From a virus, in IMG/VR virus record IMGVR_UViG_3300014050_002791, positions 1 through 21,025 of that record: 21,025 nt of DNA; one strand, given 5' to 3'. A program made the translations under genes and the position numbers. This document shows, in pieces, positions 8,749 through 14,996 of this stretch (positions within the stretch are counted from its first letter, which is position 1; every line of letters begins with the position of its first letter). Under the pieces are notes generated by a model, which worked only from the letters and a program-made list of their open reading frames with translations, did not search any database and was not told the DNA's origin.

Positions 8749-10865
8749 ATCACACTCTCGATTTTAACGATGCTAACAACCAACCAAAAGAAAAAGAAAG
8801 AGTTGATGTTGAGCTAATCAGACAGGCACTTTTAAGCAGAATTGAAGATGTTTTGTTTTATCTTCTTCCAAGCGGTCACATCAAAAATAACTGCTTTCAT
8901 ATTGGCAGTATTAAAGGCGAAGCGGGAAAAAGTTTAATCGTTCAGCTTGCCGGTGAAAAGCAAGGTCACTGGTTTGACTTCGCAACAAATCAAGGCGGTG
9001 ATATTTTTGCTTTGTGGGAAGAGGTCAGAGGTTATCACAAGTCAGATTTTAACAAACTTTTAATCGAGATTAGTGAGTGGCTTGGAAGCCCTTTGAGTTC
9101 AGAAATTCAGCAAAAAAATATTCGTCGCAACTTTACTGATGATCTTGGAAAACCAACTGCCAAGTGGGATTATTTTGACAAAAACAATAAGCTGATTGCC
9201 TGTGTTTACCGCTACGACACCGAAGATGGAAAAGAGTTTAGAGTTTGGGATGTAAAAAATCGCAAAGCAAAATCTCCTGATCCACGGCCACTTTACAATA
9301 TTCCTGGAATCACTGCGGCAAAAAAAATCATTCTTGTCGAAGGTGAAAAATCTGCTGACAGTTTAATTGCTTATGGTCTGACCGCGACAACCGCAATGTT
9401 TGGTGCAAATGCTCCAATCAATAAAACTGATTGGTCGCCGCTAATTGGCAAAGAAGTAATCATCTGGCCAGACAATGACGAAGCAGGAAAAGAATACGCG
9501 CAGAAAGTTGCACAACATTTGCTGAAAGTTGCATCTTTTGTTTCACTGATAACACCACCAAAACATAAGGCCCACAAGTGGGATGCTTTTGATGCAGTTG
9601 CCGAAGGCTTCAACATCAATTCGCTTTTTGAAAGTGCTAAAAGTTTTGAGCAAAGATTTCCGCGTTATCTTGGCGATGATTTGTGGAATGATAACAGTCC
9701 AATGCCAGATGATTTAATTTCGCCAAGATTTTTAACACCGCGCGGAATGTTGCTAATTGGCGGTGCGCCGAAAGTTGGTAAGAGTGATTTTCTGATCAAT
9801 TTTCTTATCCACATTGCAGCTGGTGAAAGTTTTCTTGGATTAAAACCACCAAAACCACTTCGTATTTTTTATCTGCAATCAGAGATCGGTTATCACTATC
9901 TGCGCGAGCGCATAAAAAATCTGCAAATTCCAAAAGATATTCTTCAGCGCGGATTAAAAAATTTCTGCGCCACGCCACAAATCGAAACCATTTTAAATGA
10001 TCACGGTGTTGAGATGGCTTACAACACGATTAAGAATTGTTTTGGCGATGATTTGTCACCTGACATTGTGTGTATTGATCCAATTCGAAATGTCTTTGAT
10101 GGCGGCGCAGAAAGCGGCAGTGAGAACGACAACAATGCAATGCTGTTTTTCCTGCAAAATCGCATAGGAAAACTTCGCTCAATGATCAATCCCGACATCG
10201 GAATTATCCTCTGCCATCACACCAAAAAAATAAAAAAGAAGGATGTTGAGGATGATCCATTTCAAGCTTTTTCCGGCGCTGGAAGTTTAAGAAGTTTTTA
10301 CACCAGTGGCTTAATTTTGCATCGCCCCAACGAGCATGAAGCAAAAATTAATCTTTATTTTGAGCTGCGAAATGGTTCATCAATTCCAAAAAAAATCGTT
10401 GAGAAAGTTGATGGAAAATGGGTCGAATTAAATCCGTTTTCTGAAAGATTAATCCAACAAGATTATGGTCAGAAACTAGATGCAGAAAGAGACCGCAAAG
10501 CTGATGTTATTTTGCAGCTGATCGCCGATGAAGCGCTGAAAGGAAATGTTTATGTCGGAAATCAGTTTGCAGAGAAGTTTGAAAACAAAGCTGGATTGGG
10601 ATGCAAAACTACTATTGTCGATAGAGTCTCAGTTCTTGCTACCAAAGGCTATATCAAGTTTAGCCGCAACTTATCAGAGTTTGCAATCCAAGGTGCGAAA
10701 TCAAAATATGGTGTTCTCTGTGTTGAAGGAATGCTGTTCAAAAACTATGATGAAAAGCTAATCCAAGTTCTACCAACACACTTTAAATGCTCCAATAGCG
10801 GCGCTGTTCTTCCGGTTGAAAATCCTGCCGTGTGGATTCTTCATGATGACGAGGTTCAGCCATGA
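8745..10865 (+). CDS. Primase-helicase: Toprim domain fused to RepA-like hexameric helicase
   Basis: This 706-residue replication protein starts at ATG 8745, overlapping the nuclease stop (ATGA), with GGGGG upstream. Residues 1-~110 resemble a primase N-terminal module (HWFDFATNQGGDIFALWEEV) but lack the CHC2 zinc cysteines. A Toprim domain follows, with VEGEKSAD (198-205) and WPDNDEAG (241-248). The RecA-fold domain has Walker A GGAPKVGKS (339-347), Walker B DIVCIDP (440-446) and the helicase motif IILCHHTKK. The final ~120 residues are probably a winged helix. The protein would synthesise primers and unwind the phage origin. The AAGAAACCA repeat array immediately downstream is the natural candidate for its target. 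The missing zinc site is common in phage enzymes of this type. Confidence 0.9.
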   Translation: MNHTLDFNDANNQPKEKERVDVELIRQALLSRIEDVLFYLLPSGHIKNNCFHIGSIKGEAGKSLIVQLAGEKQGHWFDFATNQGGDIFALWEEVRGYHKSDFNKLLIEISEWLGSPLSSEIQQKNIRRNFTDDLGKPTAKWDYFDKNNKLIACVYRYDTEDGKEFRVWDVKNRKAKSPDPRPLYNIPGITAAKKIILVEGEKSADSLIAYGLTATTAMFGANAPINKTDWSPLIGKEVIIWPDNDEAGKEYAQKVAQHLLKVASFVSLITPPKHKAHKWDAFDAVAEGFNINSLFESAKSFEQRFPRYLGDDLWNDNSPMPDDLISPRFLTPRGMLLIGGAPKVGKSDFLINFLIHIAAGESFLGLKPPKPLRIFYLQSEIGYHYLRERIKNLQIPKDILQRGLKNFCATPQIETILNDHGVEMAYNTIKNCFGDDLSPDIVCIDPIRNVFDGGAESGSENDNNAMLFFLQNRIGKLRSMINPDIGIILCHHTKKIKKKDVEDDPFQAFSGAGSLRSFYTSGLILHRPNEHEAKINLYFELRNGSSIPKKIVEKVDGKWVELNPFSERLIQQDYGQKLDAERDRKADVILQLIADEALKGNVYVGNQFAEKFENKAGLGCKTTIVDRVSVLATKGYIKFSRNLSEFAIQGAKSKYGVLCVEGMLFKNYDEKLIQVLPTHFKCSNSGAVLPVENPAVWILHDDEVQP

Positions 10866-11185
10866 AAAATCCAAGAAACCAAATTAAGAAACCAAGAAAC
10901 CAAACCAAGAAATCGGAATTTTGGTTTCTAAGCTGTAATCCTTACTCCCAAGGTAACTCCCAAGAAACCAACCAAGAAACCGCCAAGAAACCAGAATTAA
11001 AAAATTGGCATCAAACAAAAACTCCGCAAAGCCTTGTGGGACAAGGAATTCCGCAAGAAACCAGAAAACCAAAATCTTTTCAAAAAAATTTGTCAATTTT
11101 AGTGTCTGGGAAGCGTCTATTTTACTGTGCTCGTAGGTTATTTTCCAAGAAACCAACTGCACCCCCTCCATTACATGGAGGGTAA
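10862..11185 (+). CDS. Doubtful small ORF across the AAGAAACCA repeat array
   Basis: This open frame starts with ATGA on the primase-helicase stop and would encode 107 residues rich in Lys, Asn, Gln, Thr and Pro (KKPRNQ, SQETNQETAKKPE). The apparent peptide repeats come from one DNA repeat, AAGAAACCA, read in all three frames. This indicates selection on the DNA rather than on the protein. There is no recognisable domain, and the tail is basic (GKRLFYCARRLFSKKP). The stop lies inside the hairpin cluster at 11164-11212. It may be translated by coupling yet functionally secondary to a replication origin, or be no gene at all. Confidence 0.35.
   Translation: MKNPRNQIKKPRNQTKKSEFWFLSCNPYSQGNSQETNQETAKKPELKNWHQTKTPQSLVGQGIPQETRKPKSFQKNLSILVSGKRLFYCARRLFSKKPTAPPPLHGG
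10873..11155 (+). repeat. Iteron-like array of AAGAAACCA, candidate replication origin
   Basis: Seven exact direct copies of AAGAAACCA begin at 10873, 10886, 10894, 10962, 10985, 11055 and 11147. Near-copies lie at 10907 and 10974, and an inverted near-copy (TGGTTTCT) lies at 10922-10929. The copies fall in all three reading frames of the overlapping ORF, so they are conserved as DNA. The array sits directly after a primase-helicase gene, where many phages and plasmids keep the origin. AT-rich DNA between the copies could serve for unwinding. Binding by the replication protein is inferred. Confidence 0.7.
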
Positions 11186-11212
11186 ATATACCCTCCATGG
11201 ATGGAATGGAGG
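11164..11212. promoter_or_regulatory. Four alternating CCCTCCAT half-sites forming alternative hairpins
   Basis: CCCTCCAT (11164-11171), ATGGAGGG (11175-11182), CCCTCCAT (11191-11198) and ATGGAGG (11206-11212) alternate in orientation. Pairs 1-2 and 3-4 each form a hairpin. Pair 2-3 forms a longer perfect stem, CATGGAGGGTA with TACCCTCCATG (11174-11184 and 11189-11199, four-base loop). The structures are mutually exclusive. There is no following T-run, so it is not an ordinary terminator. It could be a cooperative operator for the adjacent DUF6362 gene, part of the origin, or an RNA switch between the early operon and the next gene. Confidence 0.6.
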
Positions 11213-11270
11213 TTCCGATTTTTCGGCTTCCAGATTTTGCAATTTTACCAACAAAAAAATTTGAGAAAAA

Positions 11271-11654
11271 ATGAAAGAAATTCAAAACGAGAGATTCAGC
11301 GAAGAACAAGTCATCACAATTTTTAAAGAGGCAGCAAGAACTTTGGAGAAGTTGCCAGCAGTTAGAATTCAAGGCTATTTCAACGCATGGCCTGAGATAA
11401 TCTATACTGAAAGAGAGGTCGCAAGAATGGATCAAAAAAGCAAAGTTTGGCGCGCAACTCCTGATGCAATTTCGCGAATGGAAAAAGCGATTGATTGGTT
11501 GAGCCTTCTTGAAGACGTAGTTGAGAGAAAAATTGTGTGGATGAGAGCGAGTAATATTCCTTGGGAAATTATCAAAAAAACTTTCGGATTTTCACGAGTA
11601 ACTGCGAATAAAAAATACAAAAACGCCATAAAATTTATTACTAACAATTACTAA
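11271..11654 (+). CDS. DUF6362-like helix-turn-helix protein
   Basis: A 127-residue protein with the layout of the DUF6362 phage family: an N-terminal helical part (SEEQVITIFKEAARTLEKLP), a conserved AWPEI segment (residues ~44-48), then ATPDAISRMEKAIDWL. The C-terminal helix-turn-helix is IPWEIIKKTFGFSRVTANKKYKNAI, resembling sigma-region-4-like HTHs. GAG lies close upstream of ATG 11271. In prophages I know this family from the zone between the replication and packaging modules, where a late-gene regulator is expected; that function is unproven. It follows the alternating hairpin cluster by about 60 bp, which may be its operator or leader. Confidence 0.75.
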   Translation: MKEIQNERFSEEQVITIFKEAARTLEKLPAVRIQGYFNAWPEIIYTEREVARMDQKSKVWRATPDAISRMEKAIDWLSLLEDVVERKIVWMRASNIPWEIIKKTFGFSRVTANKKYKNAIKFITNNY

Positions 11655-12341: not shown

Positions 12342-12404
12342 CGCACTTTTTTTCACGGGTAACGCGCCACCCCAGGCCTTTTCTACCGACAGAATTTTTA
12401 AAAG

Positions 12405-12490
12405 GGTGCGCAGTTGGTGCGCATTTTTAAGTTAGAACCAATAAACAACAGCATTCGCAAGGTGCGCACCTGAAGTGATTTAGGTGCGCA
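12405..12490 (+). repeat. Four copies of GGTGCGCA
   Basis: GGTGCGCA occurs at 12405, 12416, 12461 and 12483, two per hairpin. The core TGCGCA is self-complementary. The four copies are explained mostly by the two hairpins built from the same sequence, but the sharing between the two suggests duplication of one terminator, or a second role as binding sites. Confidence 0.6.
12407..12428 (+). terminator. Weak hairpin plus T-run (first of a tandem pair)
   Basis: TGCGCA at 12407-12412 and 12418-12423 can pair across a five-base loop, with TTTTT following at 12424-12428. The six-base stem is short, and because TGCGCA is itself palindromic the two copies could instead be protein-binding sites. It shares its core with the stronger terminator 40 bp downstream. 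Confidence 0.4.
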
Positions 12491-12498
12491 TTTTTTTT
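12463..12498 (+). terminator. Rho-independent terminator before the methyltransferase genes
   Basis: A perfect 9-bp stem, TGCGCACCT (12463-12471) with AGGTGCGCA (12482-12490), encloses a 10-base loop and is followed by eight T residues (12491-12498). It would end transcription coming from the DUF6362 and tail-Z-like genes and isolate the methyltransferase unit, whose first start codon lies 28 bp beyond. Confidence 0.85.
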
Positions 12499-12523
12499 GC
12501 GTGAAATTTTTATGAAAGATTAA

Positions 12524-13720
12524 GTGTGGATTTACATCCCTTCAGAATTTTATCCCTCTGCTCAGGAGTTGGCGGCATCGAGCTTGGATTTAAACTCGCA
12601 GAGCCAACTTCTCGAACAGTTTGTTATGTCGAGATCGAAGCCTTTGCGTGCGAAATCTTGGCTCGCCGCATGGAAGAAAAAAGATTGGATGCAGCGCCTA
12701 TTTGGACGAATCTTAAAACCTTCGATTGTCTGCCTTGGCGTGGAAAAGTGGATTGCATCACTGGCGGATATCCCTGCCAGCCGTTTAGTGTTGCTGGAAA
12801 AAAACTTGGAAAAGATGACCCAAGACATCTCTGGCCAGACATCAAAAGACTCATCACAGAAATTGAGCCACCAATCTGCTTCTTTGAAAATGTTTCCAAC
12901 CATTTACGAGTTGGATTTGAAGAAGTCGCAAATGACCTACGACAGTTGGGTTATCAAATTAAGGCAGGCTTGTTTACAGCGGCAGAAGTTGGTGCGCCTC
13001 ACAAGAGAGAAAGATTATTCATCTTGGCCTACAGTGATAGTTTCGGATTACCTTTGCAATCCGACAGAAACGCCGCAGCGTTGGAAAGAAAGAGCGCAGG
13101 AGAAGAAAACGGAAGGAATCAATTTACACAAACCGCTGAGGATTGTTGCTCAAGAAGCATGGCCGACAATAACAGTTACCGATGCTTCGGTGATGAAAGC
13201 AAGACCTCCGGAAAAGATGATCAGGAAAGATGGTCGCAACATGTTAAGGAATCCATCGCTGGCGGAAACGATTTTGCAACCCGTGAATTTTCCGAAGAGC
13301 AAGGAAGACCTGAAGAACAAGAATCAGGGTTTGCCTTATCAGACGAAGCAAAGCTGGCCGACTGTAAGAACATCTTCTGCAAATGGTGCGAGCGCCAAAG
13401 AAGTGGAAGCAGGAAATCCGAAGCAAAGGCTGGAAGTTATGATAACGAACTGGGCGACTCCAACAACGAGAGATTGGAAAGACACGGCCAATGCCAATGT
13501 TCCGGTGAAATCCCTGCTTGGCCGCCAAGCCCCTCGGACTATGAAAGATGGGGTAGAATTTCAGATGACCTTAAACCCGCGCTTCACCGAATGGCTGATG
13601 GGATGGCCTTTAGGGTGGACAGAATTCGAGCTTGCGGAAACGGAGTGGTTCCACTGGTTGCAGCGTATGCGTGGCGAACTCTTACGAATGGAATGTATCT
13701 TACAAAAGACAATTAACTGA
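12524..13720 (+). CDS. Candidate overprinted gene inside the cytosine methyltransferase gene
   Basis: A second frame of 398 codons stays open from two bases before the methyltransferase start to four bases after its stop. Its product contains four W-[PA]-T units (Trp168, Trp213, Trp278, Trp310; the last is NWATPTTRDWKD), followed by LNPRFTEWLMGWPLGWTEF (350-368). I recall similar protein segments next to or within phage cytosine methyltransferase genes, often annotated as hypothetical; I cannot check this here. Start is GTG 12524 or perhaps ATG 12626. Part of the similarity may be a shadow of conserved methyltransferase motifs: GWTEFELAET is the shifted reading of RVDRIRACGN. Whether it is translated is unknown. 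Confidence 0.4.
   Translation: MWIYIPSEFYPSAQELAASSLDLNSQSQLLEQFVMSRSKPLRAKSWLAAWKKKDWMQRLFGRILKPSIVCLGVEKWIASLADIPASRLVLLEKNLEKMTQDISGQTSKDSSQKLSHQSASLKMFPTIYELDLKKSQMTYDSWVIKLRQACLQRQKLVRLTREKDYSSWPTVIVSDYLCNPTETPQRWKERAQEKKTEGINLHKPLRIVAQEAWPTITVTDASVMKARPPEKMIRKDGRNMLRNPSLAETILQPVNFPKSKEDLKNKNQGLPYQTKQSWPTVRTSSANGASAKEVEAGNPKQRLEVMITNWATPTTRDWKDTANANVPVKSLLGRQAPRTMKDGVEFQMTLNPRFTEWLMGWPLGWTEFELAETEWFHWLQRMRGELLRMECILQKTIN
12526..13716 (+). CDS. DNA (cytosine-5-)-methyltransferase
   Basis: A 396-residue C5-methyltransferase that transfers a methyl group from S-adenosylmethionine to cytosine in a short target. Motif I is LSLCSGVGGIELGF (9-22). Motif IV is GGYPCQPFS with catalytic Cys84, motif VI is ENV (121-123) and motif VIII is PHKRERLF (158-165). 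Motifs IX-X are RVDRIRACGNGVVPLVAAYAW (363-383). The target-recognition region (~170-350) is unusually loose and contains recurring LAD/LGD-type segments. The only in-frame start is GTG 12526. No cognate endonuclease is nearby, so phage-DNA protection or regulation is likeliest. Almost the whole gene is overlapped by another long open frame shifted by one base, and the strange target-recognition composition may reflect that. Confidence 0.93.
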   Translation: MDLHPFRILSLCSGVGGIELGFKLAEPTSRTVCYVEIEAFACEILARRMEEKRLDAAPIWTNLKTFDCLPWRGKVDCITGGYPCQPFSVAGKKLGKDDPRHLWPDIKRLITEIEPPICFFENVSNHLRVGFEEVANDLRQLGYQIKAGLFTAAEVGAPHKRERLFILAYSDSFGLPLQSDRNAAALERKSAGEENGRNQFTQTAEDCCSRSMADNNSYRCFGDESKTSGKDDQERWSQHVKESIAGGNDFATREFSEEQGRPEEQESGFALSDEAKLADCKNIFCKWCERQRSGSRKSEAKAGSYDNELGDSNNERLERHGQCQCSGEIPAWPPSPSDYERWGRISDDLKPALHRMADGMAFRVDRIRACGNGVVPLVAAYAWRTLTNGMYLTKDN

Positions 13721-13721
13721 T

Positions 13722-14996
13722 ATGGATGACTTTGCACCAAAAATGGCGGATCACATCGAGCTTAAAAAAGTCGATGAATTGATCCCTTACAGCAAAAATG
13801 CACGGCTTCACTCAGAGGCGCAAGTTGCACAAATTGCTGCCAGCATAATCGAATTTGGTTTTACAAATCCAGTTTTGATTGATGGTGAAAAAGGAATTAT
13901 TGCTGGTCACGGAAGATTGATGGCGGCAAAGAAACTGGGGTTAAAAGAAGTGCCGGTTGTTGTTCTTGATCACCTAAGCGAAACACAAAAGAAGGCTTAC
14001 ATTATCGCCGATAACAAACTCGCAGAAAATGCTGGATGGGATGAAGAAATTTTGGCAAGCGAATTGGCGGATTTAAAAAATGAGGATTTTAACCTCGATC
14101 TGATTGGCTTTGAAGATCAGGAACTCGAAAAGATTTTTGCCAATCTTTACGAAAAAGAAAATGAGCAAGAAACAGAAGAAATTCCTGAGCCTGAAGAAAA
14201 ACCAATCTCAAAGTCAGATGATGTTTGGCTGCTTGGAAAACACAAATTGATTTGCGGCGATTCCACTGATCAAAAAACTTACCAAACCCTTCTTGGCGAT
14301 GAATTAGCTGATATGCTTTTCACTGATCCACCCTATAACGTGGATTACGGCAACACTATGAAAGACAAAGTCAGAGGCAATAACACCAAAATCCTCAATG
14401 ACAATCTTGGCGAAAATTTTGGAAAGTTCCTTTTCGATTTTTGCAAAAACGCTTTAGAGATAACAAAAGGCACATGCTATGTTTGCATGAGTTCTTCCGA
14501 GCTTCACACTTTACAAAAAGCCTTCACAGACGCTGGTGGCAAATGGTCAACTTTCATTATCTGGGCAAAGAATCACTTCACGCTTGGTCGTTCAGATTAT
14601 CAGCGACAATATGAACCAATCCTCTACGGATGGAAACAAAGCAATGATCATTATTGGTGCGGCGATCGCAATCAAGGTGATGTCTGGTATTACAACAAGC
14701 CAAACAAAAGCGATCTTCATCCAACAATGAAACCAGTTGAGCTTTGCAAGCGCGCAATTCTCAACTCGAGTAAAACTGATGATATTATTTTGGATTGCTT
14801 TGGCGGCTCCGGCTCAACTCTGATCGCATCCGAACAAACCAACCGAAGATGCAGAATGATTGAACTCGATTGTAAATATGTCGATGTGATTGTAAAAAGG
14901 TGGCAAAATTTAACTGGTAAAGACGCGATTCTTTTTGAAACCGGTGAGAGTTTTAATAAAATTTTTAAAAGAGAGAATGACCCAGAATCTGAATAA
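13722..14996 (+). CDS. ParB-domain DNA methyltransferase (N6-adenine or N4-cytosine)
   Basis: This 424-residue protein has an N-terminal ParB/Srx-like nuclease-fold domain (LKKVDELIPYSKNARLHSEAQ to ~100, including GIIAGHGRLMAAKKLG). A beta-class amino-methyltransferase follows, in which motif IV DPPY (202-205) precedes motif I DCFGGSGST (358-366). The C-terminus ELDCKYVDVIVKRWQNLTG is typical of the family. It would methylate exocyclic amino groups of adenine or cytosine using S-adenosylmethionine. ATG 13722 lies immediately after the cytosine methyltransferase and its overlapping frame; an in-frame start further upstream (13632) would fall inside those genes and adds no domain. Such ParB-methyltransferase fusions are common orphan enzymes in phages. 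It ends inside the next small gene. Confidence 0.92.
   Translation: MDDFAPKMADHIELKKVDELIPYSKNARLHSEAQVAQIAASIIEFGFTNPVLIDGEKGIIAGHGRLMAAKKLGLKEVPVVVLDHLSETQKKAYIIADNKLAENAGWDEEILASELADLKNEDFNLDLIGFEDQELEKIFANLYEKENEQETEEIPEPEEKPISKSDDVWLLGKHKLICGDSTDQKTYQTLLGDELADMLFTDPPYNVDYGNTMKDKVRGNNTKILNDNLGENFGKFLFDFCKNALEITKGTCYVCMSSSELHTLQKAFTDAGGKWSTFIIWAKNHFTLGRSDYQRQYEPILYGWKQSNDHYWCGDRNQGDVWYYNKPNKSDLHPTMKPVELCKRAILNSSKTDDIILDCFGGSGSTLIASEQTNRRCRMIELDCKYVDVIVKRWQNLTGKDAILFETGESFNKIFKRENDPESE

Follow-up and report, generated by a model that had tools for sequence, protein, structure and literature searches.

A stretch of viral DNA that can be read from end to end in two overlapping frames very probably encodes a single phage C5-cytosine methyltransferase, made as two separately translated polypeptides of the M.EcoHK31I type. 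The locus lies in IMG/VR record IMGVR_UViG_3300014050_002791, positions 1-21,025, and the window considered here is this full 21-kb viral contig. To our knowledge, long same-strand gene overlaps have rarely been demonstrated in bacteria and their phages; the present one is complete, spans about 1.2 kb, and belongs to a kind that turns up again in hundreds of contigs and genomes. It is also a natural system in which to study the evolution of two frames under joint selection.

Two Complete Frames in One DNA

The first-pass annotation had described two long frames that start within GTGTG, at 12524 and 12526, and end with stops 4 bases apart, and reading of the open frames bears this out: neither frame A (12526-13716) nor frame B (12524-13720) is interrupted over its length of about 1.2 kb, while the third forward frame contains many stops across the locus. 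The four W-[PA]-T units noticed in the shifted product are present as well (B residues 168, 213, 278, and 310), as is LNPRF..EWLMGWPLGWTEF (B residues 350-368). The features of the locus are the following.

12524..12528, + strand: double start GTGTG, with B beginning at 12524 and A at 12526
12524..13720, + strand: frame B (+1), 398 aa, proposed second subunit, with its GTG start lying 2 bases ahead of that of A
12526..13716, + strand: frame A (frame 0), proposed large (catalytic) subunit of the C5-cytosine methyltransferase, 396 aa, GTG start
12524..13018, + strand: N-terminal part of frame B over the catalytic region of A, doubly constrained DNA
12538..13050, + strand: catalytic region of frame A with motifs I (LCSGVGG), IV (PCQ), VI (ENV), and VIII (RER)
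12772-12780, + strand: motif IV (PCQ), frame A
12886-12894, + strand: motif VI (ENV), frame A
13006-13014, + strand: motif VIII (RER), frame A
13025..13570, + strand: W-[PA]-T modules of frame B (W codons at 13025, 13160, 13355, and 13451), at the position of a target-recognition domain
13054..13530, + strand: linker of frame A, predicted to be disordered (A pLDDT 33-50), with differences at B codon position 3
13571..13621, + strand: motif IX, frame B, LNPRFTEWLMGWPLGWT, from profile alignment to 18 one-frame methyltransferases
13621..13689, + strand: motif X, frame A, RIRACGNGVVPLVAAYAWRTLTN, from profile alignment (E 0.0012), with a helix at 376-386 in the model

Shuffling the own codons of A with its protein kept introduced a mean of 7.65 stops into B, and the reciprocal shuffle, with protein B kept, a mean of 17.1 stops into A; with the codon usage of the window the means were 9.6 (B, A fixed) and 27.7 (A, B fixed). 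As none of 5000 own-codon shuffles was free of stops in either direction, the double openness is not due to chance. The improbability of the second frame had been correctly anticipated, albeit from the mistaken premise of AT-rich DNA; the gene has a GC fraction of 0.47, which does not affect the conclusion.

Frame A, the Catalytic Chain

Frame A matches PF00145 (2.4e-37) in residues 6-210 only, with the match ending at profile position 195, and phrog_363 in the PHROG search (4e-61). Motifs I, IV, VI, and VIII stand in this one chain, as they do in monomeric PF00145 enzymes, and the motif columns of the catalytic region are invariant among 53 homologues; the methyltransferase frame is real in its catalytic parts, as had been claimed. 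Motif IX and the recognition domain are not joined to them in the same chain, as a monomeric enzyme would have them; motif IX is found in frame B. From alignments that, for either chain, left out three rows from the annotated phage collection, a model of A was predicted which is confident over most of residues 1-175 (pLDDT >90 for most of the catalytic region) and which, in a structure search, matches M.HhaI and M.HaeIII in their large domain; a helix at 376-386, at motif X, is also predicted with confidence. The recognition region of A had been called degenerate, as if constrained by the other frame. The constraint holds up, as the middle evolves as B codons, whereas the region itself is predicted to be a disordered linker; in some relatives the middle of A carries up to 14 stops, with B intact there.

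Frame B and Its Probable Part in Target Recognition

Frame B matches phrog_1008 (1e-16), and its homologues are 35-91% identical. A Pfam search of its product returned no domain, its profile nothing significant among PDB sequences, and its predicted model no match among PDB folds. This model is weak overall (pLDDT 59, low confidence); it is ordered in two blocks, residues 181-200 and 221-270 (pLDDT 84-94), and in a C-terminal helix, and pLDDT is low across most of residues 1-178. Predicted order therefore appears largely complementary between A and B, the model of B being one of low confidence that lacks a PDB match.

In C5-methyltransferases, the specific DNA contacts are those of the small domain, in which the variable region lies together with motif IX (PMC3404938). 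Target recognition is probably carried by the W-[PA]-T modules of B, considering their position between motifs VIII and IX, their exchange between relatives, as seen on comparison of homologues, and the freedom of A in this region; since PMC3404938 puts the predicted recognition domain of M.EcoHK31I in the large subunit, this is a role that we infer for B. In the genomes checked, B accompanies an A-type gene, the sole exception being one fragment of 68 codons.

Motifs IX and X Are Divided between the Frames

Judged by alignment, A carries the C5-cytosine-methyltransferase motifs I-VIII and X, and B carries motif IX. The reference profile was built from 18 one-frame C5-methyltransferases of related host genomes, with locus L020 left out because it shares the motif. 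Against the motif IX profile, the C-terminal block of B gave an E of 0.0013 in a short match, compared with 0.01 for the best of 100 column shuffles, and in the 18-enzyme profile the motif IX match ends 7 positions ahead of the start of the motif X match. An hhalign comparison of the C-terminus of B with only five divergent methyltransferases missed motif IX (E 0.73). A composite of A and the motif IX of B did not extend the Pfam match (131.9 bits, profile 1-165) and is for this reason not counted as support.

The distribution of the motifs was followed in 330 sequences, gathered by searches with B, with A only, and with an any-frame DNA pattern for WLMGxP; the B-based searches favour B, a bias that the other two do not share, and certain contigs were retrieved by more than one search. 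With the catalytic frame as reference, about 290 of 307 loci have the LNPxFVEWLMG motif at +1 and the GNxVP motif at 0; motif IX and the W-[PA]-T modules lie in B, at +1, in almost every one of about 300 loci. The A-only search had the motif at +1 by pattern in 20 of 29 loci and, on reading, in three more (L039-L041); L045 is AquI-like, L046 and L047, which were not individually read, probably are too, and L031, L032, and L044 lack the motif in the fetched DNA, the contig or match ending early there. The DNA-pattern search gave both landmarks in their usual frames in 99 of 120 loci.

The division is not invariable. Motifs IX and X are joined in frame A in L020 and L021, and the A product of L020 matches PF00145 over 1-319; in L223, L231, and L045 they are joined in the B frame, A being broken soon after motif VIII. 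Among related host genomes, most A-type genes match PF00145 only to about position 168, ordinary ones over 1-322. As pieces of the enzyme occur in either frame among relatives, B is tied to the enzyme.

Some loci depart from the common form in other ways. Five (L017, L019, L147, L148, and L151) have the middle of frame A broken by 4-14 stops, and in the same five the motif X part forms an ORF of its own of 87-99 aa, with an ATG at a similar place and GATGARGGYGTSGC ahead of it; by sequence they are possible three-piece methyltransferases. Two others contain dinucleotide runs within the overlap, (CA)9 at L111:3703-3720 and (AC)11 at L123:3792-3813, which coincide with a shift in frame from the catalytic part to motif IX; slippage at these runs could switch frames.

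Selection on Both Frames

Routine breakage of the shifted frame in homologues, or unreduced variability at synonymous sites of the methyltransferase, had been named as outcomes that would speak against a second gene. Neither was seen. Among 279 loci, the catalytic part has A broken in none and B in 31, while in the middle B is broken in only one and A in 13, with B intact in these; at fourfold sites the variability of the methyltransferase is about 2- to 5-fold below that of the flanking genes. Codon permutation over 82 dereplicated loci yielded 86 observed B stops in the catalytic part where 264 were expected, none in the middle where 99 were expected, and 15 A stops in the middle, 14 of them from one locus, where 307 were expected.

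Between the window and its near relatives, the middle differs mainly at position 3 of B codons (in L130 there are 6, 10, and 32 differences at B positions 1, 2, and 3), and the N part mainly at position 3 of A. Fourfold sites in the catalytic part of A differ at 6-15%, as against 26-49% in the downstream and 19-42% in the upstream gene (Fisher P from 0.019 to 8e-7 for the comparison with the downstream gene). Those of B differ at 0-11% in its N part versus 23-42% in its middle, so that the low divergence of the N part is not accounted for by a recent exchange of the gene as a whole. Purifying selection thus acts on both frames, as in a dual-coding pair, and on this evolutionary evidence B is a selected protein. 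What survives of the earlier suggestion of an overprinted gene is a real and selected second gene, but not an independent novelty: B carries the motif IX that the enzyme is missing in A and probably its target-recognition part.

Start Sites and Alternative Explanations

A weak Shine-Dalgarno-like GAAAGA (12514-12519) lies 5′ of the double start, and GTGTGG or ATGTGG double starts are common to many relatives. B starts, which were assigned by rule, fall into two classes: those a few bases from the A start (GTGTGG, ATGTGG, xTGAATGAGYTGG), to which the window belongs, and those inside A, mostly 50-180 bases in. The nested starts are preceded by GGAG, GAGG, or AGGA in 20 of 28 cases, compared with 14% of background positions. 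A start of its own, either overlapping that of A or nested with a ribosome-binding site, fits two polypeptides better than frameshifting.

Farther upstream of the double start (window 12404-12499) there are four copies of a GTGCGCA-type motif, two of them followed by T runs and one within the palindrome GGTGCGCACC; these are possible regulatory or terminator elements.

Two programmed frameshifts, from A to B after motif VIII and back before motif X, would also give one full-length methyltransferase, and the joined motifs would come in the usual order I-VIII, target-recognition domain, IX, X. In such a gene A would be free past the shift and B before it, and both stretches could gather stops; yet both are kept open (15 stops against 307 expected in the middle of A, 86 against 264 in the N part of B), and the N part is synonymously conserved, with low fourfold divergence. 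B moreover has its own starts, the nested ones with Shine-Dalgarno-like sites, and separate starts together with the constrained middle of A and the constrained N part of B argue against a frameshift fusion, which was rejected on this evidence of constraint and start sites and which we regard as unlikely. We think it quite unlikely, too, that B is a real overlapping gene with a role that has nothing to do with methylation, for instance that of a regulator or an anti-restriction protein. Its lack of a Pfam domain or PDB fold match and its distinct N-terminal part would suit such a role, but B has the motif IX that is absent from A, motif X or IX shifts between the frames in relatives, and B goes with an A-type gene in the genomes checked, bar the one short fragment.

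Coding sequence can bias other frames, and A is clearly an enzyme in its catalytic part, so B might be a shadow frame that is not made and that stays open through the sequence and codon usage of the methyltransferase; this was rejected on the codon shuffles, since those that preserve A put stops into B, and it is highly improbable also in view of a middle that evolves as B codons and of 13 loci in which A is broken there and B intact. A methyltransferase that is decaying or was mis-sequenced, with two errors of frame, would account for the displacement of motif IX and of the recognition position out of frame A, but the arrangement recurs in isolate phages and in the genomes of many hosts, a recurrence on which this explanation was rejected, and is under purifying selection; we give it hardly any chance.

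Distribution and Annotation

Searches by tblastn with A and with B matched the same place in a cyanophage genome. Reading in three frames revealed the same pattern in six phage records (phages of Synechococcus, Acidovorax, Paenibacillus, Microcystis, and Komagataeibacter, and phage C75C1) and in records from Klebsiella, Salmonella, Lacticaseibacillus, Cylindrospermopsis, Leptospira, Acinetobacter, Shinella, and Rhodoplanes. The nearest relatives come from metagenome-assembled genomes that bear the labels Rhizobium sp. Q54 (91%) and Proteobacteria bacterium REEB439 (81%), and Alphaproteobacteria contain many others. The double-coded gene thus occurs in many bacteria, in their phages and prophages, and the usual annotation shows one gene there; since either frame may be picked as the methyltransferase, such an enzyme could be cloned without a half that it needs. 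Public annotation is inconsistent for members of this family such as L005 and L004: the CDS of the Acidovorax phage is frame B, named “methyltransferase,” while for Paenibacillus phage Bloom the two frames are annotated under one name.

The other genes of the window include a phage integrase, an AAA protein, a helicase, a Toprim-domain protein, a gpA-type terminase, and a lambda-type portal. One base past the stop codon of B begins another gene for a DNA methylase (N6_N4_Mtase, also matching ParB_N weakly; window 13722-14996), and elsewhere an antisense ORF of 183 codons (window 10884-11435, − strand) overlaps one of 107 codons (10862-11185).

Proposed Synthesis, Function, and Origin

In the proposed two-polypeptide methyltransferase, ribosomes would start at either GTG of GTGTG and so make both proteins from one message. 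A would build the large domain, with motifs I-VIII, a disordered linker, and motif X; motif IX would come from B, as most likely would the target-recognition part, in the form of a series of W-[PA]-T modules; and the two would assemble into an active enzyme much as in M.EcoHK31I. Phage methyltransferases usually serve for self-protection against host restriction, and the enzyme presumably protects the phage DNA in this way. A plausible origin is an ordinary methyltransferase whose middle was displaced to +1 by an indel after motif VIII, with a compensating indel between IX and X and the gain of a B start upstream; the parts that would be new under this scenario, the linker of A and the N part of B, are those which the models predict to be disordered.

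The chances seem evenly balanced that the locus represents a large and mostly mis-annotated class of phage methyltransferases, in which two frames of one gene, with an overlap that is extensive or complete, encode a catalytic and a modular specificity subunit, target recognition can be reshuffled by exchange of modules in the second frame, and two-piece, AquI-like, and possibly three-piece forms occur.

Comparison with Known Systems

The small-subunit gene of M.EcoHK31I lies inside the large-subunit gene in another frame, and M.EaeI is similar. Two-polypeptide C5-methyltransferases are known as few enzymes; a phage-wide description, the full overlap with a double start, and the modular second subunit were not found in the literature searched, which consisted of open-licence papers. 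M.HhaI and M.HaeIII share with A the fold and motifs of the large domain and have all motifs in one chain, whereas in the present locus a second frame holds motif IX. The families phrog_363 and phrog_1008, both labelled DNA methyltransferase, are matched by A and B, respectively, but stand as separate families in the library and are not shown there as possible two frames of one DNA.

M.EcoHK31I (YGGCCR) and M.AquI (CYCGRG) are natural two-polypeptide C5-methyltransferases (PMC3404938). M.AquI, like the present enzyme, is split over two polypeptides after motif VIII (PMC3404938); its second subunit holds both IX and X, while in the window motif X remains in A, and no second polypeptide with IX and X is found. 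The M.AquI order is shared by L223, L231, and L045. Closest by description is M.EcoHK31I (Lee, Kam and Shaw 1995, as cited in PMC3404938), whose large subunit has motifs I-VIII and X and whose motif IX is in a smaller, separate polypeptide; A likewise has I-VIII and X without IX, and the placement of IX in a separate polypeptide is indicated here by sequence and start sites. The two differ in that B starts ahead of A and overlaps it completely, and in that the recognition-like modules are in B, whereas the predicted recognition domain of M.EcoHK31I is assigned to its large subunit (PMC3404938).
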